Below are positions 325 to 14,895 of a stretch of DNA of 47,888 nt, piece by piece (the first letter of the stretch is position 1; each line of letters starts with the position of its first letter). Made by a program: the position numbers and the translations under genes. The DNA lies in IMG/VR virus record IMGVR_UViG_3300008261_000210, positions 1 through 47,888 of that record. One strand, 5' to 3'. The stretch is from a virus. The notes below the pieces were generated by a model, which made no database searches, was not told the DNA's origin, and worked only from the letters and a program-made list of their open reading frames with translations.

Positions 325-441
325 GATGACCAGCGTCATAATCTGCGACGTTAGCGAGTTGGTTGTTCAACAGTGTGGTAGCTGTTGTATTTGGGACTCG
401 TTAAGTGAGTGAGGGGTGGTAGCCTAACTCACCTGGTCATC
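325..441 (+). ncRNA. candidate structured RNA, four-way junction
   Basis: A perfect 9-bp stem (GATGACCAG 325-333 with CTGGTCATC 433-441) closes a region holding three further helices. These are CGTC/GACG (334-337, 347-350); CGAGT/ACTCG (355-359, 396-400) enclosing CAACAG/CTGTTG (368-373, 382-387); and GTGAGT/ACTCAC (405-410, 427-432) enclosing AGG/CCT (412-414, 423-425). Two apical loops share the string GTGGTAG. It sits 13 nt after tRNA-Met and no ORF explains it. It is not a canonical tRNA. The fold is inferred by eye only. Confidence 0.5.
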
Positions 442-495: not shown

Positions 496-561
496 ATGAA
501 TGAGAATACAGTATACTTTATTATTGGATTAATCATTTGGATTGTTTTTAAACTTAGCTAG
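496..561 (+). CDS. putative 21-residue membrane peptide
   Basis: ATG at 496 opens a 21-codon frame ending TAG at 559-561. After the polar MetAsnGluAsnThr start it is a run of Ile, Leu, Phe and Trp long enough for one membrane span. The stop lies 4 nt before the next gene's start. Several similar micro-proteins occur in the window, which supports it. No family is recognised and it could be a chance ORF in AT-rich DNA. Confidence 0.3.
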   Translation: MNENTVYFIIGLIIWIVFKLS

Positions 562-1302: not shown

Positions 1303-1676
1303 CTCTCCCCACGCTCCCCACGCTCCCCATTTGCGAATGATTCGGCCCTAAATAATGCGCTATTTGCGAACGCGAAAGCCCCAAATATGAACTCGAAGGC
1401 CCCAAATAAAGGTACTGATACTCGGATGGTAGCGTGCGCCGATGACGCGCATACCATACGTATAGTATGTAACCCGCTGACACTCAACGACTTAAGTTGT
1501 GTTCACTTACAAAAGATGCGCCCTAAATCGCTTCAGGCTAACATCCTCGTTATCAACCAGCTCTAGTAGGATAATAAAACAATAGGGTAGGGTAAATTAA
1601 ATGATTTTTTATTATTGCACAATTCTATGTATGTATTATGTAATGTTCTAATGTATAAAATTAAGTTGTTGATTAT
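1303..1676. other. gene-free stretch with short repeats and a partial boundary element
   Basis: No convincing gene is seen. It holds a triple tandem CTCCCCACG-like repeat (about 1303-1328), two direct copies of GCCCCAAATA (about 1379-1415), a CATAC/GTATG hairpin near 1453-1469, and an isolated half-site of the boundary repeat (CTGACACTCAACGACTTA, about 1477-1494) without its GC palindrome. The rest is AT-rich without recognised signals. Confidence 0.5.
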
Positions 1677-1729
1677 GAGCCACTTAGGGGGCCGGGGGGC
1701 CCGCAAGTGCCTGGGCGTCAACGATTTAC
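1677..1729 (+). repeat. boundary element copy 1 (GC palindrome plus half-sites)
   Basis: Diverged copy with core GGGGGCCGGGGGGCCC, preceded by CCACTTA and followed by GCAAGTG and then CAACGATTTAC. It lies about 40 bp upstream of the rIIA-like promoter. See copy 2 for the consensus architecture. Confidence 0.8.
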
Positions 1730-1766
1730 ATGGCAAAAGATTTTAGTGTATTCAGTATAAAATCCC

Positions 1767-1795
1767 TTGACCACGATATAAAAAACGTGCATATT
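1767..1795 (+). promoter_or_regulatory. sigma70-type promoter for the rIIA-like gene
   Basis: -35 TTGACC (1767-1772), 17-nt spacer, -10 CATATT (1790-1795). It is preceded by CCC, as at many promoters here. The predicted start near 1802 leaves a leader of about 24 nt made of ACCAACC/CATACC repeats with no Shine-Dalgarno sequence. Confidence 0.65.
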
Positions 1796-1825
1796 AGAGA
1801 CTCAACCAACCAACCATACCATACC

Positions 1826-3961
1826 ATGATAATCGCAGACAAAACCAACAAAGTGCAATTCGAGGGTAACTTCGAGACAATCTCCGTAGGCATCGACCAG
1901 AAGAATATCGCTCACTTCTTCCGCATGATTGCCAACCTATACCAAGACCCCACGATGGCAGTCCTTCGTGAAGTTGGCGCAAATTGCGTTGACGCTACTA
2001 TTGAAGCGGGGACGGAAAAGCTCGGATGGGAATTGCATCTTCCCTCACGACTCGACGGCAATGTTCGCTTCGTTGACAATGGAGTTGGCATCTCTCACGA
2101 TCAAATGATCCGTATCTATTCAATCATTGGCGCATCCAGCAAGCGTGGCAACAATGATCTTATCGGAGGCTTCGGAGTTGGCAAGTGGTCGCTTTGCTCA
2201 CTTGTGAACAATTTCCAAGCAGTCTCACGATTCAATGGCACAAAGTCGCAGTATTTTATCTCGCTTCAATCAAGCGGACTTCCAGACATTCGACTAATCA
2301 AAAGCGAGGCGACAACGGAACGCAATGGATTTGAGGTTAAGTTTCTATGTCCCGACCGAAAAATTTCTGACTTCAACGAGAAGGTAGAAAGGGCTTATCG
2401 TTTCTTTGCAATCAAGCCAAGAGTTTTCCGTGATGGAAAATCCGTGAGTTTGACTTACAATTTCGGAGACGTGATTTTCGATGGAGGTATCAACAACTTT
2501 TCGATCTATAAGGGTTCAAATTCTCCTGTTGTCGTAATGGGCGGCGTAGGGTATCGCTTACCTTCTGAAACTATCTTGGAGAATAAGAAGTTTGAAAAGT
2601 TCCGTGGACTTCTTAATTGCAACATTGCCATTCATGTTCCAATCGGTGAATACAGCATCACCCCATCAAGAGAAGCGATCCAGTTGGACGATCTCACTAT
2701 GTCGCGCATATTCGCAAAACTCGGACAGATAGTTGATTCGTTCGTTCCGAAAATGCAAGTGGACATGGATGCTTTCAAGGGCAACACTTGGGAGGCAAAA
2801 CTTAAACTCAAGGAATTGCGGGACGTGTTCACTTTCCTTCCAGATACTTTGAAACTCGACTGGAATGGCAAGCCATTGACTGCGGCGGCAATGTCCGTGA
2901 AAGATGCAAAGGTTAATCTCTACTCGACCGCATCATGGAATAAAAAAATCTCCATGGATGAAGGGGTAAAGAATATCGAAGCTAATAAAAAAGCATTTTT
3001 ATTCTTGGATGATTTGAAACTCGGAGGCATTGGTCGCGCCAAGCAAGCGATCCTAGAAAAGAAAAAAGCGGACAGCTACGCTTCATGGGCATTCTACATT
3101 CTCAAAGAATCAGAAAAAGCAAAGTTCATTCAAGAGACTGGATGGGTAGGAGAGTTTGCTTTGACCAGTTCATTGCCAAAAGTGTTAGGTAATGGCACGA
3201 CAAGCGTTGGTTCTGGCAAGGTAGCCAAGGGAACATTTCGCCAGCGTTCGGGACGTAACTACGGAATCCATGAGTGCGTTGAGTTTTACAAACCCGCAAG
3301 TCACGTCAAGACTGATCGCTTCATTCTATTCCCTACTGCATCAAACAAGGTGTTCGGAATCCATCAAGCAACCCATGTGGACGATTTGATTAAATTGATT
3401 TCAAGACAATCGAAAACAGAAGTCGCGGCATTATTCCTGCCAACCGCTGAATACAACGATTTCACAGATTCCGACTTCGATTCAAAACCAATCGTGAAGT
3501 TTGAGGAAGTTGTCAAAACTAAAAAGTTCGTTGATGCGATTCAAAAACTTGACTCGGTTTTGCCTTGGGATTCCTTTGTCAATATGTTCAGAGACAAAAC
3601 GAATTGGGCAATGCGTTCGATTCCATTTGTCATCAAAGACCTGCAAGGAAGTTTCGATGAAAATCACATCATCTCAAAGGCTTTTGATTGCATCAAGGAC
3701 ATCGTTGCCGATGACCCAAAATCTCACATAACTCGCTCAATGAAAGCAGTTATCGAATCGGTTGACGCTACTCTTTTCTCTAACAATAAAAGCACAAACG
3801 AGAAGCAATTAGCGGAGTTTCAAGATTGCGCGAATAAGATTGTGGCAACCTATCCGTTGTTCTCGCCAGTTGCCGACGACTACAACATGAGCAATGCCAA
3901 TGTGAGAACATTCAAACAACCCCTCATTGATTATATCAATCTTGTGGATGCTAAAAATTAA
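1826..3961 (+). CDS. rIIA: RIIA-like protein (GHKL ATPase fold)
   Basis: A 711-residue protein with the N-terminal ATP-binding signatures of the GHKL fold seen in phage RIIA proteins. The N-box is REVGANCVDA at about 48-57, the G1 box is DNGVGIS at about 84-90 and the G2 box is GGFGVGKWS at about 114-122. The length matches T4 RIIA (725). In T4, RIIA and RIIB are membrane-associated, control lysis timing and counter the lambda Rex exclusion system. The rIIB-like gene is the next gene, as in T4-like phages, but in its own transcription unit. An in-frame ATG at 1730 lies upstream of the promoter, so the start at 1826 was chosen. The C-terminal half is not recognisable in detail. Confidence 0.8.
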   Translation: MIIADKTNKVQFEGNFETISVGIDQKNIAHFFRMIANLYQDPTMAVLREVGANCVDATIEAGTEKLGWELHLPSRLDGNVRFVDNGVGISHDQMIRIYSIIGASSKRGNNDLIGGFGVGKWSLCSLVNNFQAVSRFNGTKSQYFISLQSSGLPDIRLIKSEATTERNGFEVKFLCPDRKISDFNEKVERAYRFFAIKPRVFRDGKSVSLTYNFGDVIFDGGINNFSIYKGSNSPVVVMGGVGYRLPSETILENKKFEKFRGLLNCNIAIHVPIGEYSITPSREAIQLDDLTMSRIFAKLGQIVDSFVPKMQVDMDAFKGNTWEAKLKLKELRDVFTFLPDTLKLDWNGKPLTAAAMSVKDAKVNLYSTASWNKKISMDEGVKNIEANKKAFLFLDDLKLGGIGRAKQAILEKKKADSYASWAFYILKESEKAKFIQETGWVGEFALTSSLPKVLGNGTTSVGSGKVAKGTFRQRSGRNYGIHECVEFYKPASHVKTDRFILFPTASNKVFGIHQATHVDDLIKLISRQSKTEVAALFLPTAEYNDFTDSDFDSKPIVKFEEVVKTKKFVDAIQKLDSVLPWDSFVNMFRDKTNWAMRSIPFVIKDLQGSFDENHIISKAFDCIKDIVADDPKSHITRSMKAVIESVDATLFSNNKSTNEKQLAEFQDCANKIVATYPLFSPVADDYNMSNANVRTFKQPLIDYINLVDAKN

Positions 3962-3982
3962 ATAAATTATGGTAGTGGTTAA

Positions 3983-4021
3983 GGGGAGCGGAGTGGTTGC
4001 CGCTCCCCTTCTCTTTGCTTT
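3983..4021 (+). terminator. intrinsic terminator after rIIA-like gene
   Basis: GGGGAGCGG (3983-3991) pairs perfectly with CCGCTCCCC (4000-4008) across an 8-nt loop, followed by the T-rich TTCTCTTTGCTTT. Confidence 0.8.
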
Positions 4022-4050
4022 GGAATCTGTCCATGTAAGTGTATCATTAT

Positions 4051-4104
4051 CAACTACTTACGGGGCCCCCGGGCCCGCAAGTGCCTGACACTCAACGACT
4101 TACG
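4051..4104 (+). repeat. boundary element copy 2 (type example)
   Basis: Half-site CAACTACTTACG (4051-4062), GC core GGGGCCCCCGGGCCC (4062-4076), inverted half-site GCAAGTGCCTG (4077-4087) and a third direct half-site CAACGACTTACG (4093-4104). The first two half-sites and the core can fold into one long hairpin. It lies between the terminator and the next promoter. Confidence 0.9.
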
Positions 4105-4129
4105 ATTGAAGAAAGTTGTATAAAAAGAT

Positions 4130-4158
4130 TTGACATGGCAATCAAAACGGACTATATT
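4130..4158 (+). promoter_or_regulatory. sigma70-type promoter for the rIIB-like gene
   Basis: -35 TTGACA (4130-4135), 17-nt spacer, -10 TATATT (4153-4158). The ATG at 4168 lies 9 nt after the -10, so the leader would be about 3 nt, which is effectively leaderless. Confidence 0.75.
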
Positions 4159-4167
4159 TATATTGTT

Positions 4168-5040
4168 ATGAACACAACACCAAACCAAACCAACCCATAC
4201 GCAACGCAAACACTCATTGGACGTTTTATCTCCAAAGAGCAAGTCACGCTTATCTTCTCCGAGGATACTGCGGTCATCGACAACTCCAACCCCAAGTTCG
4301 TGGAAATCTTGCAACTCTGCAAAGAGGGCAAGTATGCAGAAGCGGCAGGATTGGCAACAATCAAAGATCAGATCAATCAAACCTTCGATGGCGACATTGA
4401 GGTTGTAGATGGTGAGGTATTGTTTGAAGGCAAGCCTCTCCACAATGTCATGTGCGAACGCATTCTTGACATTCTCCGCGAGGGTCTTGATGCTACTGGT
4501 CTTATTAAGTTTTTGAGGAACTTGATGGACAATCCATCATACACGGCAGTTCAAGAGTTGTATCTGTTCCTTGAATCGAATCAGATTCCAATCACAGAAG
4601 ATGGTCACTTCCTCGCGTGGAAAAAGATTCGTGGCAACTGGAAAGACATCCACTCAAACTCTGTTGATTACTCTGTTGGCGCAACGCCAAGCATGAAACG
4701 CAACGAGGTTGATCCAGATCGAGATCGCACTTGCTCAAATGGATTGCATTGCGCGGGATGGAGTTACCTCCCAAATTTCGGCTCAAACAGCGATTCGGAT
4801 CGTGTTGTGATTGTCAAGGTGAATCCTGCGGACGTGATTGCTGTCCCTAACGATTACAACAACGCAAAAATGCGCGTGTGCAAAATGGAGGTGATGCGCG
4901 AATACACAGACCGCAAGGTTGAAGCAGATGAGTTCTCTCATTCGGTTGTGTCTTCTGATGGTCGCAGTTTTGAAGAAGGTTATCAGCAGGGATATGATGA
5001 TGCCATTGATGACAACGGATGGTGGGATGACGAGGAATAA
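4168..5040 (+). CDS. rIIB: RIIB-like protein
   Basis: A 290-residue protein whose central and C-terminal parts match the phage RIIB family. It has a GHFLAWKKI segment near 150, a segment ending VGATPSMKRNEVDPDRD, then CSNGLHCAGWSYLP and a VIVKVNPADVIAVP strand followed by DYNNAKMRVCKMEV. In T4, RIIB works with RIIA in control of lysis and superinfection. ATG 4168 is chosen because an in-frame ATG at 4135 lies inside the -35/spacer of a strong promoter. CA-rich codons follow the start (AACACAACACCAAACC). The C-terminal tail is acidic (DDAIDDNGWWDDEE). Confidence 0.85.
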   Translation: MNTTPNQTNPYATQTLIGRFISKEQVTLIFSEDTAVIDNSNPKFVEILQLCKEGKYAEAAGLATIKDQINQTFDGDIEVVDGEVLFEGKPLHNVMCERILDILREGLDATGLIKFLRNLMDNPSYTAVQELYLFLESNQIPITEDGHFLAWKKIRGNWKDIHSNSVDYSVGATPSMKRNEVDPDRDRTCSNGLHCAGWSYLPNFGSNSDSDRVVIVKVNPADVIAVPNDYNNAKMRVCKMEVMREYTDRKVEADEFSHSVVSSDGRSFEEGYQQGYDDAIDDNGWWDDEE

Positions 5041-5055
5041 GATCGTAACAAGGAG

Positions 5056-5085
5056 GAGGGAGTCGAAAGACTCCCTCTTTTTTTT
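5056..5085 (+). terminator. intrinsic terminator after rIIB-like gene
   Basis: GAGGGAGTC (5056-5064) and GACTCCCTC (5069-5077) form a perfect stem with a GAAA tetraloop, followed by eight T residues. Confidence 0.92.
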
Positions 5086-5137
5086 GCATTTTTATTCTTT
5101 AAGGTTCCACATTGTCACCATAGTAAGTAGCTTACAA

Positions 5138-5192
5138 TGAACGACTTACGGGGCCCCCGGGCCCGCAAGTGCCTGAGCATCAACAACTTAAG
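5138..5192 (+). repeat. boundary element copy 3
   Basis: GAACGACTTACG, then core GGGGCCCCCGGGCCC (5150-5164), GCAAGTGCCTG, and third half-site CAACAACTTAAG (5181-5192). It lies between the preceding terminator and the next promoter. Confidence 0.9.
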
Positions 5193-5209
5193 TATTGTAT
5201 ACTTTCGCC

Positions 5210-5238
5210 TTGCCTCCGAATTAAAATTCAATTATATT
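5210..5238 (+). promoter_or_regulatory. sigma70-type promoter, leaderless start
   Basis: -35 TTGCCT (5210-5215), 17-nt spacer, -10 TATATT (5233-5238), then exactly 6 nt (CTTAAC) to the ATG at 5245. The A of ATG is the expected +1. Confidence 0.75.
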
Positions 5239-5244
5239 CTTAAC

Positions 5245-5583
5245 ATGGACAAGAAACAACGAGGCAGGAAAAAAGGATCAGTCAGCTTCATGCAGGTTGA
5301 ACTGAATGAATTGAACAGGATATTAAAACCAGATGCCAAGGTTATTTTATCTATCCGATACGCTCAACTGGTCGGACTGAATGGCAAGCCAGTCAGTTCT
5401 AATCTTGACGTGTTGAGTCATTGCGTTGCAAGCGGCAAAGCGGAAATGCAGTTGGTTGACTTCGATGAGGAGGAGCAGGACGTTCCCGCACCCAATGCTA
5501 ACAAAAAGAAAGATGAGATCAAAGACGACGATCATATTTCCACACAGGCAGAACTTGAAACATTTGACGAAAACGAATTTTAA
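5245..5583 (+). CDS. small basic/acidic protein of unknown function
   Basis: 112 residues. The N-terminus is strongly basic (KKQRGRKKGS, residues 3-12). The middle is a folded-looking segment rich in Leu and Val. The C-terminal third is acidic and low complexity, ending FDENEF. Basic head plus acidic tail suggests a nucleic-acid-associated protein. The acidic-aromatic end recalls single-stranded-DNA-binding protein tails, but no OB-fold can be claimed. The start is fixed by the promoter, since an upstream in-frame ATG at 5137 would read through the boundary element. It heads a unit with the next gene. Confidence 0.75.
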   Translation: MDKKQRGRKKGSVSFMQVELNELNRILKPDAKVILSIRYAQLVGLNGKPVSSNLDVLSHCVASGKAEMQLVDFDEEEQDVPAPNANKKKDEIKDDDHISTQAELETFDENEF

Positions 5584-5601
5584 TTAAATAAAAAAAACAA
5601 C

Positions 5602-5901
5602 ATGAACACAGAAGAATCATTCTCATTGTCAATCAAAAATCTTCGTCGTCGCGGCTGGAAAGTTCGCGTGATGCATAGTCGCAACTACTTCTTGCGCAAC
5701 AGGTTGGATGGCAAATCTACTGAAGTGTCGGCACGTGGAGGCAAAACAGAAATTCAACTCACTAGCCCATGCAAGAACATTAACACGTCTGGCGTGGCAG
5801 TATGTTCGGATGAGGATAACTACAACAGGAAGCTAGGAAACTCAATCGCATTGGGTAGAGCATGGAATAAAGCCATGGATAAAAAGCATGAAAATGTATA
5901 A
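5602..5901 (+). CDS. hypothetical protein, 99 aa
   Basis: 99-residue basic protein beginning MNTEESFSLSIKNLRRRGWK. The Arg-rich segment LRRRGWKVRV (14-23) and a short Gly-Gly-Lys region suggest nucleic acid contact, but no family is recognised. It starts 18 nt after the preceding stop in an A-rich stretch without a Shine-Dalgarno sequence. Its 3' end runs up to the promoter of the RuvB-like gene. Confidence 0.75.
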   Translation: MNTEESFSLSIKNLRRRGWKVRVMHSRNYFLRNRLDGKSTEVSARGGKTEIQLTSPCKNINTSGVAVCSDEDNYNRKLGNSIALGRAWNKAMDKKHENV

Positions 5902-5907
5902 AATTAT

Positions 5908-5936
5908 TTGACTATTGTATAAAAACCTACCATAAT
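5908..5936 (+). promoter_or_regulatory. sigma70-type promoter for the RuvB-like gene
   Basis: -35 TTGACT (5908-5913), 17-nt spacer, -10 CATAAT (5931-5936). ATG lies 8 nt further, so the leader is 2 nt or less. The string TTGACTATTGTATAAAA recurs at the promoters near 10.8 and 12.4 kb. Confidence 0.75.
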
Positions 5937-5944
5937 ATAAAAAG

Positions 5945-6949
5945 ATGAATACAACCGACACAACCAACGACCACTTCTCACACTTAATCGGACAAGATAA
6001 ACTCAAGGCTCAACTGCGATTCTATCTTAACTCTTTCCGTGAAACTCAAATCCTGCCAACCATTCTGTTGGTGGGAGGGCGTGGTTCAGGCAAGACGGAG
6101 TTCGCAGTATCATTGGCTAAAAACCTGCGAATGGAATCTATGGGGGGTCGCCCAAAACCTTTGCTGACGATCAACTCAAGCACTTTAAAAAATGTGCGGC
6201 AGTTTGTAGAAGACATTGTATTGAAGTATGTTAATGACCAGACTTTGACGCTGTTCTTCGATGAGTGCCATGCTCTACCCGAAAGCGTTCAGACTGCTCT
6301 CTTGACAATTCTTAACCCAAACAAGAAGAACTCAAACCTTTTCCGCTACGAGGATAGCGAGATCATGTTTGACTTTAGGAAAGTCAGCTTTGTATTCGCA
6401 ACAACTGACCCACAAAAATTGGTTGGGCCTTTCAAGGATAGGTGTCGCGTATTGCACATGGACGAGTATCAATACTCTGACCTTGGAAAGATCGTGCGTG
6501 AGAATCTCGATACTGGATTGGCTATTCCAGATGAAGTGATGGATCATGTCGCCTCTGTATGTCGTGGTAATGCGCGTAATGCTGTTCTGATGGCGAAGGA
6601 TAACATCGTGCAGTATATGAAGGGAAGCAAGGTTTCTGAACTATGCCATAAGCATTGGGACGCTCTCTGTGACGTATTGGGCATTATGCCTATGGGTCTT
6701 GAGAGTTCCGAGGTTCAAGTGTTGAAAGCATTGAGTGAGTTTCAAGAAGGATGCTCTCTAAACAATCTCTCTGCCAAAACTGGATTCACCAGACAGGCAA
6801 TTATGCTTGAGTTTGAGTCCTACCTTGTCAAGAAAGGATTGATGCAGATCAAATCTGGCGGCAGGGAGATAACCACAAAGGGCAAAGATTATTTGGCTAA
6901 ACACGTTTTCAAAACACAAACAGGAGTATTTACAAATGACCTCAATTAA
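5945..6949 (+). CDS. RuvB-like AAA+ ATPase
   Basis: 334 residues with the RuvB arrangement. An IGQDKLK segment (15-21) precedes Walker A GGRGSGKT (44-51). Walker B is LFFDECHAL (103-111), sensor 1 is FATTD (151-155), an arginine-bearing KDRCR lies at 164-168 and sensor 2 is GNARNA (208-213). A C-terminal winged helix (about 262-320) ends with a GGREITTKGKDYL turn like the DNA-binding domain of RuvB. RuvB drives Holliday junction branch migration as a hexameric motor. No RuvA or RuvC is visible nearby, so it may act alone in recombination-dependent replication. The next gene overlaps its end by 14 nt. Confidence 0.8.
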   Translation: MNTTDTTNDHFSHLIGQDKLKAQLRFYLNSFRETQILPTILLVGGRGSGKTEFAVSLAKNLRMESMGGRPKPLLTINSSTLKNVRQFVEDIVLKYVNDQTLTLFFDECHALPESVQTALLTILNPNKKNSNLFRYEDSEIMFDFRKVSFVFATTDPQKLVGPFKDRCRVLHMDEYQYSDLGKIVRENLDTGLAIPDEVMDHVASVCRGNARNAVLMAKDNIVQYMKGSKVSELCHKHWDALCDVLGIMPMGLESSEVQVLKALSEFQEGCSLNNLSAKTGFTRQAIMLEFESYLVKKGLMQIKSGGREITTKGKDYLAKHVFKTQTGVFTNDLN

Positions 6950-7544
6950 AACAAGCAGACTAGAAAATTTACCGGATGGTGCGCCATTTGTAATTCCAGC
7001 ACTACCAGATCACTTTAAAATCTTGTATCTTATTCGCGGCGGTCAATCCACGTGCAAGGTGCAGGGTTATAAAAAAACAGACGCAGGAGGATATTCCCCA
7101 ATGATTGATTTCTTCGCTCCAGCAACAGCGGTGTTGTATGACAATACGAGGAAGCAATTACCTATCAGTAAAGAAGGAACCATATCTATCCCTAGAGAGT
7201 ATATGGCTCAAGTTTCGAGTGAAGCTAAAGAGGAAAAGCAAGAAGAAAAAAAAGTAAATAAAAAAACTAAAAAAACTAAAGGAGTAAATAAAATGAGTAT
7301 TGAAACAATAAACATGGGTATCCCTACAAAGAATGTAGTAGGACGACCAAAGAAATATAGTATCGAACTTCCACATGGCGAAGAGTTTACGGTGAGTAAT
7401 GTTGCGGCTAAACTTGGTGTAAAGAAGTTTGTGATTAATAACGAGATCGCAAGGATTCAGCGGGAGACGCCAGATATTCTGCAAGTAGTAGGTTCTGTTC
7501 CGCAGGGTAAAGGTAAACCTGCGCGAGTGTTCAAGCTACATTAA
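6936..7544 (+). CDS. two-domain protein with Lys/Glu linker, unknown function
   Basis: 202 residues. An N-terminal domain of about 90 residues is joined by a low-complexity Lys/Glu linker (about 97-120) to a C-terminal domain of about 80 residues. The latter contains FTVSNVAAKLGVKKFVINNEIARI, which reads like a helix-turn-helix and is preceded by a GRPKK basic patch. It may bind DNA. The start overlaps the RuvB-like gene by 14 nt, indicating translational coupling and a possible partnership. No named family is recognised. Confidence 0.75.
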   Translation: MTSIKTSRLENLPDGAPFVIPALPDHFKILYLIRGGQSTCKVQGYKKTDAGGYSPMIDFFAPATAVLYDNTRKQLPISKEGTISIPREYMAQVSSEAKEEKQEEKKVNKKTKKTKGVNKMSIETINMGIPTKNVVGRPKKYSIELPHGEEFTVSNVAAKLGVKKFVINNEIARIQRETPDILQVVGSVPQGKGKPARVFKLH

Positions 7545-7549
7545 GAATG

Positions 7550-7596
7550 TGGGTTGAGGGTTATCCCTACAAGCAAAACCCTAGCCTCCCATTTTT
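7550..7596 (+). terminator. possible imperfect terminator hairpin
   Basis: TGGG (7550-7553) pairs with CCCA (7588-7591), and GGGTT (7558-7562) pairs with AACCC (7577-7581), with an internal loop. The run ATTTTT follows. It is weaker than the other terminators. Confidence 0.4.
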
Positions 7597-7617
7597 AACA
7601 ACCAACCAACACAATTT

Positions 7618-7833
7618 ATGACCAATCCAAAAGACGAGCTGAATGAGCATCTAGTCAATTCTAAAGTCAAGACCGCAATTTTATTCTTAACATCTGACCG
7701 AATACCAAATGAAGAAAACTTTGATTTTGTCCTTGAGCTGATGAGGGAATACGATTTGAAAGAAGCTAGGAATCTTTTGTATGATAATTATTATGATGAG
7801 ATGTTGGAGTGGTCTGACTTCAATGGGTTCTAG
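7618..7833 (+). CDS. hypothetical acidic protein, 71 aa
   Basis: 71 residues, acidic and largely helical by composition, with clustered Asp/Glu/Tyr in the C-terminal third. No family is recognised. Its leader contains AACCAACCAACAC just upstream of ATG and no Shine-Dalgarno sequence. Boundary element copy 4 starts 17 nt after its stop. Confidence 0.7.
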   Translation: MTNPKDELNEHLVNSKVKTAILFLTSDRIPNEENFDFVLELMREYDLKEARNLLYDNYYDEMLEWSDFNGF

Positions 7834-7849
7834 TATAACTCCCTGTAGC

Positions 7850-7904
7850 TGAATAAGTTACAGGGCCCCCGGGCCCGCAAGTGCCTGATATTCAATGATT
7901 TATG
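7850..7904 (+). repeat. boundary element copy 4
   Basis: AATAAGTTACA, core GGGCCCCCGGGCCC (7863-7876), GCAAGTGCCTG, and third half-site TTCAATGATTTATG. It directly follows a stop codon with no other terminator between. Confidence 0.88.
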
Positions 7905-7919
7905 TATGAATAAAATTAC

Positions 7920-7948
7920 TTGACGACCCGATAAAAAACGCATACCTT
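7920..7948 (+). promoter_or_regulatory. sigma70-type promoter, near-leaderless start
   Basis: -35 TTGACG (7920-7925), 17-nt spacer, -10 TACCTT (7943-7948). ATG 7957 lies 8 nt further. Confidence 0.65.
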
Positions 7949-7956
7949 TATTGAGT

Positions 7957-8673
7957 ATGACAACCACTACCACTACACCAACCAAAGAAAAAGCAATCAT
8001 GCAGACGGAGGAAGCGGAGGCTTTCTTTGCTTCGATCACAGACCAAGAGCGCAGATTGCAAGCGGCATACTGGTCAGCACTTAAACCACTCAACGATACC
8101 GAAAGATTTCAAAGAGCATTGTTCGCCTACACTTCCGTTCATACAAGCTGGAAGTCTAACATTACTGCTTATTCGCTCATCAAAGATTGGTGGGTTTGGA
8201 TGAACAAGTGGGACGTTCTTGAAGACAAGATCAAAGAAAGTGGCGCAGGATTGTTTCGCAATCGCGTCCGCTTCATCAAAGATTTTTCAGAAAAGTATTG
8301 GTCTAATCCAACTTTTTATAGTAAGTCCGAAACCGAGACTTGGGTTGATTATCGCAATCGCATCGAAGACACTATCCTTGGTCTTGGCATGGCAAAGAGC
8401 AGTTTCTTTATTGAAATGGTTTATCCTACCGAGGCAGAAATTACTTGTCTCGACACTCATCTGTTTCAGCTTTACGGATTGGATCAGACCAAAAACAGAA
8501 ACCAGTATGAAGACATCGAGCGTCATTGGGTCAGAATGTGTTTTGAATACAAAGTGCCTTGCTATGTGGCGCGTTGTATTTACTGGGATCGCAAGCAGGG
8601 TTACACCGATTCCCGCTACTGGAGTTACGTTCTTGAGAAACCAACTTTCGTATATGATGAACTGCAATACTAA
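7957..8673 (+). CDS. possible HhH-GPD-like DNA glycosylase
   Basis: 238 residues. Residues of about 135-175 read ILGLGMAKSSFFIEM and then ITCLDTHLFQLYG. This resembles the hairpin (GxGxxKA) and catalytic-Asp segment (xLDxHxxR-like) of HhH-GPD glycosylases, which remove damaged or modified bases. The remainder is rich in Trp and Tyr and not otherwise recognisable. ATG 7957 follows the promoter closely. Codons after ATG are CA-rich (ACAACCACTACCACTACACC). The assignment rests on one motif region. The alternative is an unrelated helical protein. Confidence 0.45.
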   Translation: MTTTTTTPTKEKAIMQTEEAEAFFASITDQERRLQAAYWSALKPLNDTERFQRALFAYTSVHTSWKSNITAYSLIKDWWVWMNKWDVLEDKIKESGAGLFRNRVRFIKDFSEKYWSNPTFYSKSETETWVDYRNRIEDTILGLGMAKSSFFIEMVYPTEAEITCLDTHLFQLYGLDQTKNRNQYEDIERHWVRMCFEYKVPCYVARCIYWDRKQGYTDSRYWSYVLEKPTFVYDELQY

Positions 8674-8685
8674 ACAAAAAAACAA

Positions 8686-8760
8686 ATGGAAACAGAAAAC
8701 CTACCAATAGCACTAATAATAACACTTGGAACAATCCTATCTATGTTGATAAGATGGTAA
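8686..8760 (+). CDS. putative 24-residue membrane peptide
   Basis: METENLPIALIITLGTILSM followed by LIRW. This has a charged N-terminus, one hydrophobic span and a basic end. It is 12 nt downstream of the glycosylase-like gene in an A/C-rich gap. Resembles several other micro-proteins in the region. No homologue is recognised. Confidence 0.45.
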   Translation: METENLPIALIITLGTILSMLIRW

Positions 8761-8780
8761 ATTAAATTGAATTAAATATT

Positions 8781-8939
8781 ATGTATAAACTAACCAAAAA
8801 AACAATCGACTTCATCTTGAGCATTATCTTTCCCTATCCAGACCTTGACCCTAGGCCAGACTATTTGTTCAATGAGGAAACCCGCATCCAGAAGCTATTC
8901 AGAACTGGAGAGATTAACCACTTCGCCATTAGAAAGTGA
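8781..8939 (+). CDS. hypothetical protein, 52 aa
   Basis: 52-residue ORF: a short hydrophobic segment (FILSIIFPYP, 11-20) followed by a charged tail with RIQKLFRTGEINHFAIRK. ATG follows AATATT and no Shine-Dalgarno sequence is present. It is the last + strand gene before the convergent junction. Function unknown. Confidence 0.5.
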   Translation: MYKLTKKTIDFILSIIFPYPDLDPRPDYLFNEETRIQKLFRTGEINHFAIRK

Positions 8940-8956
8940 CAACGCAAAAGCCTGTA

Positions 8957-8997
8957 ACTCAACGAGTTACGGGCCCGGGGGCCCCGTAAGGGGCTGA
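8957..8997 (-). repeat. boundary element copy 5 at convergent junction
   Basis: Core GGGCCCGGGGGCCCC (8971-8985), which is the minus orientation. An extra perfect hairpin GTAACTC/GAGTTAC (8954-8970) overlaps it. It lies between convergent + and - genes (stops at 8939 and 9009), so it could end transcription from both sides. Confidence 0.85.
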
Positions 8998-9008
8998 TCT
9001 GCATATAC

Positions 9009-9167
9009 TTATGACGTGCCTTGCCTGTCCCTGTCGCAGAATGGACAGAACGTGGGGCAGTCAGCTTTTCTGTGGCGTTCGTATAACTCTGTATATTTAT
9101 ATGGGTTAGTGGCACAACCTACCATAAAAAGGATAGGGAGGGTTAGTATTAGTGATAGTTTTTTCAT
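9009..9167 (-). CDS. small lipoprotein with Cys-rich end
   Basis: 52 residues. A typical type II signal peptide starts MKKLSLILTLPILFMVGC, giving a lipid-anchored Cys at residue 18. The mature part is short and polar with CPTFCPFC (37-44), a possible metal- or disulfide-forming cluster. The start at 9167 is chosen because it gives the canonical signal peptide. A longer in-frame form starts at 9197. Location would be the cell envelope. Role unknown; small lipoproteins in phages often act in superinfection exclusion. Confidence 0.65.
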   Translation of the reverse strand: MKKLSLILTLPILFMVGCATNPYKYTELYERHRKADCPTFCPFCDRDRQGTS

Positions 9168-9220
9168 ATAATGATTAGATTTTGTTGAATAGTTCAAACG
9201 TGAGTTGACTTATCGTGCAG

Positions 9221-9487
9221 TTACCAATCAATTTCTGCATAGACCAGCTTCCCTTCTTTGGCAAGTCCTCTATACTTTTCCCGTATTTCTGGCGTGTTCT
9301 TATAAGTCTCTTGAACTTCCCATACCTCATCGAAGTTCTCCCCTGTTAGTGGGCCAATTTTGAAATCGTCGCAACTATTGTCATAGTCAGAGAAGTAGTC
9401 CTCTAATTCCAATCGTAGTTGACGGGCAGTTTCGTTTAGAGTCTTGCCTTCTGGCACTCTCTTGATTCTTGTTTCGAGCATTCCCAT
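9221..9487 (-). CDS. hypothetical acidic protein, 88 aa
   Basis: 88 residues, predominantly helical and acidic, beginning MGMLETRIKRVPEGKTLNET. An alternative start at the internal ATG 9481 removes two residues. It starts 4 nt after the stop of the preceding gene (9492-9674), so the two are co-transcribed. No family is recognised. Confidence 0.65.
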   Translation of the reverse strand: MGMLETRIKRVPEGKTLNETARQLRLELEDYFSDYDNSCDDFKIGPLTGENFDEVWEVQETYKNTPEIREKYRGLAKEGKLVYAEIDW

Positions 9488-9491
9488 AATG

Positions 9492-9674
9492 TTATTCTAA
9501 TTCTTTTGTTGTTAGGATTGTGATTTGAATTGCATCTGTATCATCTTCCGCATCAGTATCCATGAGGAACATGGACGATCCCTCTATTACTACTTCTTGG
9601 TTGTCATCGTCAATGATGATTGCACTTGCATCTTCTAGGATTTTGTAGGCATCTTGTAGTGGTATGTCTTTCAT
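9492..9674 (-). CDS. hypothetical acidic protein, 60 aa
   Basis: 60 residues, very acidic (runs such as IIIDDDNQEVVIE and DTDAEDDTDAIQITIL). It looks like a compact beta-strand-rich fold. The leader carries AACCAAACC and ACCAA tracts and no Shine-Dalgarno sequence. Function unknown. Confidence 0.65.
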   Translation of the reverse strand: MKDIPLQDAYKILEDASAIIIDDDNQEVVIEGSSMFLMDTDAEDDTDAIQITILTTKELE

Positions 9675-9701
9675 TTGGTTTTTATTTGGTTTGGTTTCTA
9701 A

Positions 9702-9947
9702 TTAGTAATAAAGGTCAGTATCCTCTACCTCGTCTGCGGTTACGACCCTGTATAGTTCCTGCGCTTCTTCAAGTGATTCGATCATATCCTGCATCTCTTG
9801 AATAGCCTCATGTTCTGTTTCAAAAATCTCTGGTTCGTAGTTTTGACCATCTTCGCTAAATTTCATATCTGCCCATCCCCAAAGGGTGCGCGTTTGGATT
9901 TTATACTTCTCGCTATCTTTTGCGAATGTTAGTTGTTGTGTTTTCAT
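9702..9947 (-). CDS. hypothetical acidic protein, 81 aa
   Basis: 81 residues beginning MKTQQLTFAKDSEKYKIQTR. The C-terminal half is helical and Glu-rich (HEAIQEMQDMIESLEEAQEL) and could form a coiled coil. Part of the five-gene unit led by the SprT-like gene. No family is recognised. Confidence 0.65.
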   Translation of the reverse strand: MKTQQLTFAKDSEKYKIQTRTLWGWADMKFSEDGQNYEPEIFETEHEAIQEMQDMIESLEEAQELYRVVTADEVEDTDLYY

Positions 9948-9960
9948 ATTTGGATTCGTA

Positions 9961-10236
9961 TTAAACTATTTCGGAACAAATGAATGCTGGGGTATTTTCT
10001 CCGACATACGCTCCTTCGACGTTGAAGGAAAAGTATTCCTCTGCTTCATCATAAGACATATCTTTTGCAAGAATGTCGATACACTTGGCGCGATCATACA
10101 CGGCAAACGCTTGATTGAATTGTCTTGCAATTCCTACAAACGCTTCTTCATATCCATCTGCCAGTAGTATATTCTCATCTTCCGACAAGCAGGACTCGAT
10201 TGCGTTTTGTATTTTTTGACTTGGTGTGGTTTTCAT
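9961..10236 (-). CDS. hypothetical acidic protein, 91 aa
   Basis: 91 residues from ATG 10236 (MKTTPSQKIQNAIES...), acidic and helical, with a Tyr/Phe-rich C-terminal part. An in-frame start at 10269 would lie inside the upstream gene and is not used. The leader is ACAACCAACCACTATA. A TTGACA at 10281-10286 inside the end of the SprT-like gene may form an extra promoter, but its -10 is weak. Confidence 0.65.
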   Translation of the reverse strand: MKTTPSQKIQNAIESCLSEDENILLADGYEEAFVGIARQFNQAFAVYDRAKCIDILAKDMSYDEAEEYFSFNVEGAYVGENTPAFICSEIV

Positions 10237-10259
10237 TATAGTGGTTGGTTGTATTATAT

Positions 10260-10805
10260 TTAATTGCATTCTGATAAAAATGTCAAGGTGCTAAAACATT
10301 TAATGCACTTGTATGCTCTTTTATTTTTTTCAATTTTATTGTGGCGAACTGCGCCGATCTCATGTTTGGAGCAGGCGCAAATATACTTGAACTTCTTAAC
10401 CTTCTTGCCAATGCCGTCTGTGTTCATATCGTGGCAACGCAATGGCTCAAGACCATAAACCTTTTTCATTATCATCTTCCAAGTCTTGCCATGATGACTC
10501 TCGGCAGGAAGATTCCTCTTGACAATATATTTCATTGCGAGGATATGCGCTACCTCATGCGGGATGGTATCGTTTGCGAACGCTTGAATGTTAGCCTTGA
10601 GAAGTTCAAGGTTCAAATAGACAATGCTGTTATCGAATGGCTTGACATAGCCAGCGACTTTACTTTTTTTGAAAAATTGCACACCATCGAAAGGCACATT
10701 GATTTTCAATTTGAGTGCGCCGATCTCTAATGCTCGCTTGACGTTCTGTTCAGCGAAATCTTTTACGTCTGATGGAACAAGTAGTGGTGAAACAATGTTA
10801 CTCAT
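10260..10805 (-). CDS. SprT-like zinc metalloprotease
   Basis: 181 residues with the SprT-like layout. HEVAH at 83-87 supplies zinc ligands and the catalytic Glu. HHGKTWKMIM at 104-113 carries the third His. A C-terminal zinc ribbon has CAC (143-145) and CIKC (167-170). SprT/Spartan-family proteins are linked to DNA-protein crosslink processing. Bacterial SprT is poorly understood. The start at 10805 is fixed by the promoter, because an in-frame start at 10838 overlaps the -35. First gene of its unit. Confidence 0.82.
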   Translation of the reverse strand: MSNIVSPLLVPSDVKDFAEQNVKRALEIGALKLKINVPFDGVQFFKKSKVAGYVKPFDNSIVYLNLELLKANIQAFANDTIPHEVAHILAMKYIVKRNLPAESHHGKTWKMIMKKVYGLEPLRCHDMNTDGIGKKVKKFKYICACSKHEIGAVRHNKIEKNKRAYKCIKCFSTLTFLSECN

Positions 10806-10816
10806 AACTAAAATAA

Positions 10817-10845
10817 AATATATGGCTATTTTATACAATAGTCAA
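10817..10845 (-). promoter_or_regulatory. sigma70-type promoter for the SprT-like unit
   Basis: On the minus strand: -35 TTGACT (10840-10845), 17-nt spacer, -10 TATATT (10817-10822). The leader is about 5 nt. Confidence 0.75.
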
Positions 10846-10863
10846 GGGATTATTATTCTAATA

Positions 10864-10919
10864 CGTAACCTGCTGGCGCCAAGGCACTTGCGGGCCCGGG
10901 GGCCCCGTAAGTAGTTGAT
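10864..10919 (-). repeat. boundary element copy 6
   Basis: Minus-strand reading TATCAACTACTTACG, then core GGGGCCCCCGGGCCC, then GCAAGTGCCT, matching copy 2 base for base over this part. The third half-site is degenerate. It lies 8 nt after the 3' end of tRNA-Met. Confidence 0.9.
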
Positions 10920-10926
10920 AACAAAA

Positions 10927-11002
10927 TGGTAGCGGGTGTGGGAATCGAACCCACCTAAAGATGCTTATGAGACACCTCAATTCGCCAGAATTGTAACCCG
11001 CA
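10927..11002 (-). tRNA. tRNA-Met (anticodon CAT), second copy
   Basis: Acceptor TGCGGGT/ACCCGCT with a T-T mismatch at position 1:72, D-arm CAAT/ATTG, anticodon stem GGTGT/GCATC with loop CTCATAA, T-arm GTGGG/CCCAC. ACCA is encoded. An unpaired 1:72 is typical of initiator tRNA, but the three G-C pairs of the initiator anticodon stem are absent, so the elongator/initiator assignment is open. Confidence 0.85.
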
Positions 11003-11011
11003 GAAAATTGG

Positions 11012-11130
11012 TTACCGAGACCTCTCATTCTATTGCTAGGAGAAGTTCCCTACAGATTAAATGTTGATTTCGAACTCATTGCATTGTCATCTGTCGCGGA
11101 TATGGTCTTGCAAACCTATGCGCTCGGTAA
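11012..11130 (-). ncRNA. candidate structured RNA inside the tRNA cluster
   Basis: An 8-bp perfect stem TTACCGAG/CTCGGTAA (11012-11019, 11123-11130) closes the region. On the minus strand it holds a CGC/GCG-based hairpin containing GGT/ACC with a short loop, a 6-bp stem ACAGAT/ATCTGT (11052-11057, 11089-11094) and TAGG/CCTA (11037-11040, 11049-11052). It lies between tRNA-Met and another candidate RNA. No ORF is supported. The fold was drawn by eye. Confidence 0.35.
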
Positions 11131-11134
11131 ATTA

Positions 11135-11239
11135 TTTGGTAAGTGGCTGCGATGCATACGAATGCACACGAAACGCCTTATTAAGCACCACTCCTCTTTC
11201 GATGGCACAGGGATAGGTATTACTACTCTATCTACCAAA
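11135..11239 (-). ncRNA. candidate structured RNA, three-way junction
   Basis: A 7-bp closing stem TTTGGTA/TACCAAA (11135-11141, 11233-11239) is directly continued by AGTGG/CCACT (11142-11146, 11188-11192), which encloses TGCAT/ATGCA (11153-11157, 11162-11166). GATAG/CTATC (11212-11216, 11228-11232) abuts the other strand. The 7-bp outer stem is acceptor-like, but D- and T-arm sequences are missing. Confidence 0.35.
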
Positions 11240-11249
11240 CAAAAAACGG

Positions 11250-11365
11250 AAGAAGTGGTTGGGATCGAACCAACGGCTTGCTTTACCACCCAGCGTTGCG
11301 GTCCTTTACCGAGAGGCGTGAGCCTCGTGAGGGTGTTGCTGCTCTACCAACTGAGCTACACTTCT
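11250..11365 (-). tRNA. tRNA-like gene with about 43 extra nucleotides, anticodon unclear
   Basis: Acceptor AGAAGTG/CACTTCT, positions 8-9 TA, D-arm GCTC/GAGC with AGTTGGTA loop and T-arm GTTGG/CCAAC with TTCGATC are canonical. Between D- and T-arms there are 66 nt instead of about 23. This insert folds into CACCC/GGGTG enclosing GAGGC/GCCTC (TCAC loop) and CGGT/ACCG hairpins. The first five bases, GCAAC, have no GTTGC partner, so no normal anticodon arm can be drawn. It could be an intron-bearing, insertion-bearing or degenerate tRNA. Confidence 0.55.
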
Positions 11366-11370
11366 TGTTT

Positions 11371-11443
11371 CTGCAATGAAGGGACTTTAACCCTCAACCT
11401 CCCACTTACAAAGTAGGACTCTAGTCATTTGAGCTACATTGCA
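11371..11443 (-). tRNA. tRNA-Thr (anticodon TGT), second copy
   Basis: Acceptor TGCAATG/CATTGCA, D-arm GCTC/GAGT, anticodon stem CCTAC/GTGGG with loop TTTGTAA, T-arm GAGGG/CCCTT with loop TTAAAGT. It shares its anticodon with the tRNA-Thr at 1156-1230 but the sequence is clearly different. Confidence 0.8.
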
Positions 11444-11636
11444 TACTAAAAATGATGAGTTCAGCCTGCGTCATTACATCCGGGAATGTTACTGCGATCC
11501 CTCTCTTTCATGGCGATCAACCCACTTATGAGATCGCGCTGTCCTCATCGAAATTAAAATATAAAAGATCAATTTCCGATTTTTGTATTCGACCGAGAAT
11601 TCCCAGTCCCATCGGCTCATCGGGAACCACTATCTA
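11444..11636 (-). other. untranslated leader of the tRNA cluster
   Basis: About 190 nt between the promoter and the first tRNA, with no ORF. It contains inverted GCGATC/GATCGC repeats (around 11503-11544) and an ACAT/ATGT hairpin near 11472-11485. One segment carries CTCATAAG, like a Met anticodon loop, so it may include tRNA remnants or processing signals. Confidence 0.35.
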
Positions 11637-11665
11637 TTTATACATCCATTTTATACTATTGTCAA
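11637..11665 (-). promoter_or_regulatory. sigma70-type promoter for the minus-strand tRNA cluster
   Basis: -35 TTGACA (11660-11665), 17-nt spacer, -10 TATAAA (11637-11642) on the minus strand. No start codon follows, which is consistent with a stable-RNA promoter. It overlaps the end of the upstream small gene. Confidence 0.8.
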
Positions 11666-11895
11666 ATAATAATCGCTACCTCATTCTCTATTTTAATATC
11701 AGATGCCTTCCCAGCCATAACGCAACGAGGCTGAAGTTTTCTGTTTCTTGTCTTAATAGGCACTCGGCAGTCTAATCCTTCCACGAAATGACAAACGCCA
11801 TTGAAGTGGACTGTCAATATGTTTTTCTTCCTCTGAAGCGATAGCGGCTTATTGTAGTGAAACCAGAAGGCTTGCTGTTTGGTTGTGGTGTTCAT
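11662..11895 (-). CDS. hypothetical basic protein, 77 aa
   Basis: 77 residues beginning MNTTTKQQAFWFHYNKPLSL, basic, with the beta-like segment ILTVHFNGVCHFVEGLDCRV. Its start overlaps the stop of the preceding 49-codon gene by 4 nt (ATGA), so it is translationally coupled. Its 3' end overlaps the tRNA promoter -35. No family is recognised. Confidence 0.7.
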   Translation of the reverse strand: MNTTTKQQAFWFHYNKPLSLQRKKNILTVHFNGVCHFVEGLDCRVPIKTRNRKLQPRCVMAGKASDIKIENEVAIII

Positions 11896-12041
11896 AATTC
11901 GTAGGGTATGTCTATAAATTGCAATGTATATTTGCTTTTGCGACTATAACATTTTTTATCTTTTAATACTTTGGTTGGAGGTGTGGCTTTCTTTCTAGCC
12001 TTTGGTGTTTTAACCTCTATTTTAAATGGTTTTATTTTCAT
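11892..12041 (-). CDS. hypothetical basic protein, 49 aa
   Basis: 49-codon ORF. The first half is Lys-rich (MKIKPFKIEVKTPKARKKAT) with a Pro-rich stretch, and the second half ends QFIDIPYEL. It starts 13 nt after the upstream stop and ends in the ATGA overlap with the next gene, so it fits the operon exactly. The basic composition suggests nucleic-acid binding. Family unknown. Confidence 0.6.
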   Translation of the reverse strand: MKIKPFKIEVKTPKARKKATPPTKVLKDKKCYSRKSKYTLQFIDIPYEL

Positions 12042-12053
12042 GGCGTGTTTGCT

Positions 12054-12353
12054 CTATGATGACCAATATGTTTCTGAAGCTATTGAACAATTGAATGGGG
12101 TATTCTTGTCTTCTGCCGCCCATGTTCCGTCAAATGCAGACATGACGACTTTCATCCCCTTCATTTTCTCTGAACAAACACTAGCCAAGATTTCTTGACT
12201 GAATGAATGCCCGCACGTTCCCTTGATGCTCATAATAATTTCGTATGGGAAAATGGAATCGTAAACGATTTTTCCGTCAAATAGAACTCTGTGGTATTCT
12301 CCCCCGATATTGAGCGACATTAGCCATTTCTCTGATGATGTTGGATTTTTCAT
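12054..12353 (-). CDS. hypothetical protein, 99 aa
   Basis: 99 residues beginning MKNPTSSEKWLMSLNIGGEY. Mixed alpha/beta composition with three Cys. First gene of a three-gene unit (12353 to 11662). The leader is about 16 nt (TTGAAACTACCACA) without a Shine-Dalgarno sequence. No family is recognised. Confidence 0.7.
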   Translation of the reverse strand: MKNPTSSEKWLMSLNIGGEYHRVLFDGKIVYDSIFPYEIIMSIKGTCGHSFSQEILASVCSEKMKGMKVVMSAFDGTWAAEDKNTPFNCSIASETYWSS

Positions 12354-12375
12354 TGTGGTAGTTTCAACTAAAATC

Positions 12376-12404
12376 AGTATCGGATAATTTTATACAATAG
12401 TCAA
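12376..12404 (-). promoter_or_regulatory. sigma70-type promoter
   Basis: -35 TTGACT (12399-12404), 17-nt spacer, -10 GATACT (12376-12381), minus strand. The spacer begins ATTGTATAAAA, as at the promoters near 5.9 and 10.8 kb. Confidence 0.6.
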
Positions 12405-12507
12405 GGGGATTTTTTCCAGATTACGGCCCGGGACTACCTAAATAGAGTAAATAAGCGTAACTGCACAAAACATTGCAAAATGTGCAAGTTTATGTAGACC
12501 CTTAACG

Positions 12508-12571
12508 CGTTGAGTATCAAGCACTTGCGGGCCCGGGGGCCCCGTAAGTCGCTGATATTCAACCACTTGCG
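12508..12571 (-). repeat. boundary element copy 7
   Basis: Minus reading: CGCAAGTGGTTG, ATATCAGCGACTTACG, core GGGGCCCCCGGGCCC, GCAAGTGCTTG, then CTCAACGCGTTAAG. One additional outer half-site is visible on the upstream side. Confidence 0.9.
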
Positions 12572-12585
12572 TTTCCCATTGTGGC

Positions 12586-12621
12586 AAAAAGAGAGCGCGC
12601 CCCACCACAAGGCGCGCCCTC
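12586..12621 (-). terminator. intrinsic terminator after the 107-aa gene
   Basis: Minus strand: GAGGGCGCGCC pairs with GGCGCGCTCTC across a TTGTGGTGG loop, followed by TTTTT. It contains two GGCGCGC-type palindromes. Confidence 0.85.
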
Positions 12622-12638
12622 ACCCATTGCACTACAAG

Positions 12639-12962
12639 CTAGCCAATCACAAAGTCCTCAACATCAGAGAGTTTGAAACGCTTGATCGAGCGTGTCGTGT
12701 CATTGTTTGGAAGTCCCTGAAGATAGAGGCTTTGCTTGTGTTCCACAAGTGCGCCGTTGGCGTAGGATTTACCCCATGAGCCGCCGCCAGAGCCGCCGCC
12801 GCTGGAGCGGTCGGCAAGTTTTGCCCCAAGTGTGAGGTTGCGGCGTTTGCCGTTGTAGGTGAAGCCAGCGAAACAAGTTCCCTTGTTGATGACGATTTCG
12901 GAGACTAGCGAAGCCAGTTGTTGAGCTTTGCGGTTTTGGGTTTGGTTGGTTTGGTTGTTCAT
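12639..12962 (-). CDS. hypothetical protein with Gly-rich segment, 107 aa
   Basis: 107 residues starting MNNQTNQTQNRKAQQL. The Gly/Ser run SSGGGSGGGSWG (about 54-65) separates two basic, beta-like halves. The start is set by a promoter whose -10 ends 7 nt before ATG 12962. A longer in-frame extension to 13115 would cross this promoter. Downstream codons are CA-rich (AACAACCAAACCAACC). Unknown family. Confidence 0.7.
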   Translation of the reverse strand: MNNQTNQTQNRKAQQLASLVSEIVINKGTCFAGFTYNGKRRNLTLGAKLADRSSGGGSGGGSWGKSYANGALVEHKQSLYLQGLPNNDTTRSIKRFKLSDVEDFVIG

Positions 12963-12969
12963 AATCTTA

Positions 12970-12998
12970 TTTATAGTATTTTTTGCTTTGTTTGTCAA
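12970..12998 (-). promoter_or_regulatory. sigma70-type promoter, near-leaderless start
   Basis: -35 TTGACA (12993-12998), 17-nt spacer, -10 TATAAA (12970-12975), then 7 nt to ATG 12962, minus strand. Confidence 0.78.
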
Positions 12999-13020
12999 TG
13001 CTATTTTTAATTCATTTAAT

Positions 13021-13089
13021 TTATTTGCGTTCATTGTAGAGCATAAAAGCTCCGAGAAGTATTCCGATAATGATGACGGCTTCTTGCAT
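13021..13089 (-). CDS. putative 22-residue membrane peptide
   Basis: MQEAVIIIGILLGAFMLYNE plus RK: acidic start, one clear hydrophobic span, basic end. It competes with an overlapping open frame in another phase (13115 downward, MKTKPKT...), whose product is low-complexity and would cross the next promoter. The peptide looks more protein-like. Upstream ACCAAACCAAAAAC fits the CA-rich leader pattern. Confidence 0.45.
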   Translation of the reverse strand: MQEAVIIIGILLGAFMLYNERK

Positions 13090-13117
13090 ATTTTTGTTTT
13101 TGGTTTGGTTTTCATTT

Positions 13118-13786: not shown

Positions 13787-13808
13787 GGTGTTATTGATTA
13801 CAGATAAG

Positions 13809-13837
13809 AGAATAGTCTTATTGTATAAAAAGCGCAA
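13809..13837 (-). promoter_or_regulatory. sigma70-type promoter for the Gp88-like gene
   Basis: -35 TTGCGC (13832-13837), 17-nt spacer, -10 TATTCT (13809-13814), minus strand. The leader is about 16 nt and ends AATAACACC before ATG. Confidence 0.65.
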
Positions 13838-13877
13838 GGGGTTTTTTTATTTTTTTTGCATTTTAATTTTCGAGGCA

Positions 13878-13926
13878 ATCGGGAATCGTGCCAGGCCCGG
13901 CGTTGCGCCATTCAAGAATCGTGCCA
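13878..13926 (-). promoter_or_regulatory. tandem sigma54-like motifs, unit C
   Basis: Minus strand: TGGCACGATTCTTGAAT (from 13926) and TGGCACGATTCCCGATT (from 13893), spaced 33 bp. The -24-like TGGCACG is perfect, but the -12 position reads GA instead of GC. Confidence 0.5.
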
Positions 13927-13939
13927 AGTTTTTCCATAC

Positions 13940-14006
13940 GCAAGTCGTTCAGCCTCAACCACTTGCGGGCCCGGGGGCCCCGTAAGTCGTTGGTATTCAA
14001 CAACTT
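13940..14006 (-). repeat. boundary element copy 8
   Basis: Minus reading GAAGTTGTTGAATACCAACG, then ACTTACG, core GGGGCCCCCGGGCCC, GCAAGTGGTTG, then CTGAACGACTTGCG. It starts 17 nt after the stop of the 166-aa gene with no other terminator between. Confidence 0.9.
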
Positions 14007-14022
14007 CGGGGGTTTGTTAAGT

Positions 14023-14523: not shown

Positions 14524-14535
14524 GTTTGAGTTTTT

Positions 14536-14564: not shown

Positions 14565-14567
14565 GGA

Positions 14568-14822: not shown

Positions 14823-14828
14823 GTATTC

Positions 14829-14856: not shown

Positions 14857-14895
14857 GATATTTTTTTAAATTATTTTCACGCCATGTTTTGCGCT

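Follow-up and report, generated by a model that had tools for sequence, protein, structure and literature searches.

A conserved four-way-junction RNA upstream of rIIA in uncultured large phages

Does a short segment of an uncultured phage genome, lying beside a tRNA-Met gene, give rise to an RNA in its own right, and what might such an RNA do? The segment occupies positions 325 to 441 (+ strand) of the window, by which we mean the whole 47,888-nt stretch analyzed (IMG/VR virus record IMGVR_UViG_3300008261_000210). The matter touches a long-standing puzzle, namely what leads phages to retain stable RNAs other than tRNAs, rnaC and rnaD of T4 for instance, next to their tRNA genes. A first-pass annotation, made from the letters alone, had described a 117-nt region with a 9-bp perfect closing stem, a four-way junction, a nested hairpin and two hairpin loops sharing GTGGTAG. 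Each of these is present where it had been placed, and the element is made up as follows.

325 to 441, + strand: whole structured RNA, a four-way junction
325 to 333, + strand: 5' strand of P1, GAUGACCAG, in nine perfect pairs with 433 to 441
334 to 350, + strand: P2, a CGUC/GACG hairpin (stem 334-337/347-350) with the 9-nt loop AUAAUCUGC
351 to 404, + strand: P3 arm, consisting of P3a (351-358/397-404), an internal loop and the nested hairpin P3b (368-373/382-387)
359 to 367, + strand: 5' strand of the P3 internal loop, UUGGUUGUU, conserved and unpaired, UGGUUGG-like in relatives; a candidate antisense segment
374 to 381, + strand: P3b octaloop, UGUGGUAG
405 to 432, + strand: P4 hairpin (405-410/427-432 and 412-414/423-425) with the octaloop GGUGGUAG at 415 to 422
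433 to 441, + strand: 3' strand of P1, CUGGUCAUC, paired with 325 to 333

The two GTGGTAG heptamers fall at 375-381 and 416-422, within the P3b and P4 octaloops, both of which are closed by a G-C pair. The annotation had proposed a comparison with shuffled sequence as a check. At -49.6 kcal/mol, 325-441 folds more stably than its shuffles, which average -31.2 kcal/mol (sd 3.4); z is -5.4, and none of 200 shuffles folds as well.

The same fold occurs, one copy each, in five other IMG/VR phage records, which contribute four further distinct sequences. One of them, L005, was found with a two-loop DNA pattern and four more records through the rIIA-like neighbor protein; in L091, L092 and L094/L095 the RNA was then recognized by inspecting the stretch 5' of rIIA. 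The five distinct sequences, the window included, went into a covariance model, which returns exactly one strong copy per record in all six (112-128 bits), one of these records being 134 kb long. Each relative also folds better than shuffled sequence (z of -5.4 in L005, -4.2 in L092, -3.7 in L094 and -5.2 in L091). On a MAFFT alignment of the five sequences made without reference to structure, 96.5% of cells pair, and both partners have changed in 15 of 40 pairs spread over all five helices: two pairs in P1, 5/8 in P3a, 4/10 in P3b, three in P4, and one in P2, which is U-A in the window vs C-G in the relatives. RNAalifold counts 14 such pairs, in agreement. The number 15 is reached in none of 500 shuffles and falls to 0-2 when partners are slid by 1-3 columns, with the caveat that only five sequences enter the count and that the structure was derived from the very alignment tested. 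The covarying homologues that had been named as a check on the proposal thus exist. Palindromes that are short and GC-rich abound in these phages, so one might ask whether 325-441 is a chance fold, or a DNA-level element devoid of a functional RNA. The compensatory changes in every helix, their collapse on sliding and the consistently low z values in the window and four relatives refute that reading, which we consider scarcely tenable; judged by this comparison of sequences, the RNA fold is evolutionarily real.

Nor does the segment encode a protein. Reading frames over 325-441 are short or broken by stops, none crosses it in a conserved manner, and the relatives differ from the window by 1-2-nt insertions or deletions; such single-base indels and scattered stops exclude a coding explanation, as the annotation had maintained. 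The phage probably produces it as a small non-coding RNA.

Is it one of the RNAs already described? Rfam release 15 holds no family matching 325-441 at the gathering threshold, and permissive searching yields only a chance match at 412-444, to a togavirus element, which scores 16.6 bits (E 2.7) against a gathering threshold of 40; the presumed novelty with respect to Rfam has therefore held up. Relatives were likewise not found among 50,697 phage records: blastn with three family members as queries gave tRNA or chance matches only, at 17-32% coverage, and no homologue turned up in cultured phages. Scans of viral and genome collections by pattern or neighbor protein produced six records in total, window included. 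The covariance model found nothing above chance in the 80 genome-scan loci that were listed out of 118, or in the other viral pattern matches; one match, in L167, scores 26 bits (E 0.05). Within the window a second copy was considered at 3892-4017 and taken as chance (16.7 bits, E 0.16 per genome); this weak match spans the end of rIIA and a hairpin between rIIA and rIIB.

Three kinds of known RNA invite comparison. The four-way junction and the tRNA-gene neighborhood are reminiscent of tRNA, but the arms differ in size, there is neither T-loop nor CCA, and the element is called by neither ARAGORN nor the Rfam tRNA model. T4 rnaC (species 1) and rnaD (species 2), as annotated in NC_000866, are stable phage RNAs of 119-139 nt next to tRNA genes; their predicted folds lack the four-way junction and GUGGU loops described here, and the covariance model does not match them, scoring at most 5 bits with its filters disabled. 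Some structured RNAs found by comparative genomics lie near phage tRNA genes. Comparative genomics has revealed structured RNAs in phages and metagenomes, GOLLD and others (PMC2864571, PMC12286853). They were likewise discovered by covariation in uncultured DNA, GOLLD being far larger than the present RNA. On sequence grounds, 325-441 represents a new family within a known kind. Like phage small regulatory RNAs, it is a non-coding, structured unit that phage genomes conserve, and the family, from uncultured large phages, is well supported by compensatory changes in every helix.

The surroundings of the RNA help to narrow down what it might do. In all phages it lies between a small secreted-protein gene and rIIA/rIIB, on the same strand, and the parts that matter in the window are these.

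1 to 230, + strand: small secreted-protein gene, 3' part, its product 49% identical to that of L005 435-704; precedes the RNA in all phages
239 to 312, + strand: tRNA-Met (CAU), 12 nt upstream of the RNA, absent at the matching site in L005, L092, L091 and L094
320 to 324, + strand: AATTT directly 5' of P1, AATTT or AATTTT in 5/5 sequences despite a differing preceding gene
442 to 453, + strand: U-rich, pyrimidine-only tail, CUUCUUUCUUUC, U-rich in 5/5 sequences
1796 to 1825, + strand: rIIA 5' leader ending in GACUCAACCAACCAACCAUACCAUACC, a candidate target, with a promoter-like TTGACC-17-CATATT at 1767-1795
1826 to 3961, + strand: rIIA-like gene (HATPase; PHROG 612 RIIA, E 5e-72)

The annotation had placed the RNA in a tRNA array and supposed that it is processed together with the array. 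A tRNA-Met gene does end 12 nt upstream, but the array is a loose one, the next tRNAs (1156-1303) lying beyond a sulfotransferase-like gene. The small secreted-protein ORF lies directly upstream of the RNA in L005/L093, L092 and L091, L094/L095 have another gene there, 2OG-oxygenase-like by eye, and in none of these does a tRNA adjoin. Co-processing with tRNA-Met is therefore not a conserved property. Most RNA-bearing records do have tRNA genes nearby, but the RNA is tied to no tRNA in particular, which makes its adjacency to tRNA-Met an accident of this genome. The sulfotransferase-family gene itself (542-1165, + strand), situated between tRNA genes, runs about 10 nt into tRNA-Thr, which starts at 1156.

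Downstream, the nearest gene conserved in all records is the rIIA-like gene (65-71% identity among phages). Immediately 3' of the RNA, three phages carry a single-pass membrane microprotein of 21-26 aa (window 496-561, + strand, MNENTVYFIIGLIIWIVFKLS; L091 424-501; L094 near 7686-7766). A riboswitch-like cis leader of a downstream gene, for example of the 21-aa microprotein at 496-561, would fit these three, whereas L005 and L092 have unrelated ORFs at the site, and no alternative terminator or structure sequestering a ribosome site is seen. Since the downstream gene is not conserved we reject this reading, which is very improbable.

What stays constant across the five distinct sequences is a unit of AAUUU, the RNA and a U-rich tail, pyrimidine-only over at least its first six bases. 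That this unit persists while the genes on both sides change speaks for an independent RNA and against a leader that serves one gene. The AATTT at 320-324 is possibly a processing site. The unit could, as the strongest rival account has it, be a cis-acting module that ends or protects the transcripts of the upstream gene, by termination at the U-rich tail, by blocking exonucleases or by marking a processing boundary, and has no target of its own. In every phage the preceding gene ends within about 15 nt of the start of the RNA, the two are always on the same strand, and a U-rich tract follows. A plain 3'-end element, however, would need neither sequence-conserved loops nor a conserved internal loop; the tail after P1 was scored in a terminator scan as no canonical intrinsic terminator; and the module is not reused at other gene ends, each record holding a single strong copy. 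We regard this account as somewhat unlikely.

The unpaired segments, which are G/U-rich, are among the most conserved columns of the alignment, and conservation of this kind suggests a role in recognition. The identical loops noted in the annotation survive in part: a GUGGU core is kept in both loops in 5/5 sequences, but the full heptamer stands in both in only three of the five, the P3b loop reading CCGUGGUUGU or ACGUGGUUGU in L094 and L091 and the P4 loop GGUGGUAU in L091; the protein or RNA target that the annotation had suggested for these loops is putative. One partner for such loops could be the tRNA machinery. Both octaloops are similar to the tRNA-Thr D-loop of this phage (AGUGGUAG), in which GUGGUAG recurs at 1170-1176; UGGU, which each RNA shows unpaired in at least three places, might base-pair with CCA ends; and most records are rich in tRNA genes around the RNA. 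The element might then be a decoy that binds a tRNA-handling enzyme, a host nuclease or uncharged tRNA, for instance in counter-defense. Its want of a T-loop and CCA end and its failure to be called as a tRNA speak against this, as does a P3b loop that is not D-loop-like in L091 and L094, and resemblance between short loops easily arises by chance, so that a decoy seems unlikely.

The other possible partner is mRNA. The six 7-mers most enriched upstream of gene starts are CTCAACC, ACCAACC, CCAACCA, AACCAAC, TCAACCA and CAACCAA; these most enriched 7-mers are of the CAACCAACC type, and the internal-loop segment of P3, UUGGUUG(G), is their complement. In the window, P3 segment 359-367 is complementary to the CAACCAAC leader of rIIA, a match that is suggestive only. 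G-poor 5' leaders of the CTCAACCAACC type stand right before the ATG of many genes (1796-1825 and, for example, 7599 on the + strand and 10250 on the - strand), in places directly 3' of a promoter-like site.

Ranked by duplex energy among initiation regions, the rIIA leader comes 1/53, 1/75, 1/38 and 2/165 in four phages and 5/55 in the window; shuffled P3 segments match its rank in 5-10% of trials in the four and in 28% in the window. The whole RNA has no more complementary 7-mers than random genomic 117-mers, and each RNA pairs no better with the leader of its own phage than with those of other phages. Some complementarity is to be expected between leaders rich in A and C and an RNA rich in G and U, and gene starts called mechanically blur all antisense pairing tests. 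Given the weakness of these tests, a stand-alone, phage-encoded structured sRNA acting in trans is retained as the best reading, tentatively, and the rIIA leader, on the strength of its complementarity, as a rather doubtful candidate for its target.

How such an sRNA would be made and act, from transcription and processing to trans action and target, we infer as follows. The RNA would be the last part of a transcript starting upstream of the small secreted-protein gene (in L092, a promoter-like TTGACA-17-TATTAT lies 5' of the small ORF); its 5' end would probably be trimmed at the conserved AAUUU and its 3' end set by P1 and the U-rich tail. The four-way junction would display G/U-rich single strands, namely the UUGGUUGG-like strand of P3 and the two GUGGU loops, and trans action would proceed through these segments. 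The favored candidate target would be the CAACCAACC leader with which the mRNAs of rIIA and other phage genes begin, and antisense pairing would take place beside their start codons. The c4 antisense RNA of phages P1 and P7 carries target-complementary stretches in its loops that bind around a ribosome-binding site (PMC12197685). By analogy the present RNA may work in a like manner, differing in target and phage group, in having no Rfam match and in that pairing here is putative. That one multi-loop sRNA recognizes a shared (ACCA/CAACC)n leader, and thereby holds rIIA and other genes of a virulent phage in one post-transcriptional regulon, is quite unlikely; if true, trans action on shared leaders would be an uncommon example, among virulent phages, of mRNAs controlled as a set by the phage's own sRNA.

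Several other features of these genomes deserve mention. In all phages, short repeats of the TATTTGCGAACGCGAAGTCGCCAAATAATA type form clusters, both in the interval that separates the RNA from rIIA and around tRNA genes (window 1329-1408; L005 1140-1205; L092 8490-8590; L091 510-650; L094 8430-8530). Intergenic palindromes built around CTTGCGGGCCCGGGGGCCCCGTAAGTCGTTGA occur in at least 11 copies in window 1661-20166 (e.g. 4035-4102, 10865-10920 and 13940-14007) and also in L005, L091, L092 and L094, often just 5' of promoter-like sites. A tRNA at 11250-11365 (- strand) is matched by the Rfam tRNA model over 116 nt (44 bits); ARAGORN misses it at default settings and otherwise calls it as tRNA-Arg (ACG) with a 32-nt intron in the anticodon loop. 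In G001, near 12360, there is a very similar sequence. An intron or other insertion inside a phage tRNA would be unusual. Near the end of the window, in the 47727 region (+ strand), CCAACTCCAACG-type repeats stand in a row and probably encode a stretch rich in Pro/Thr.
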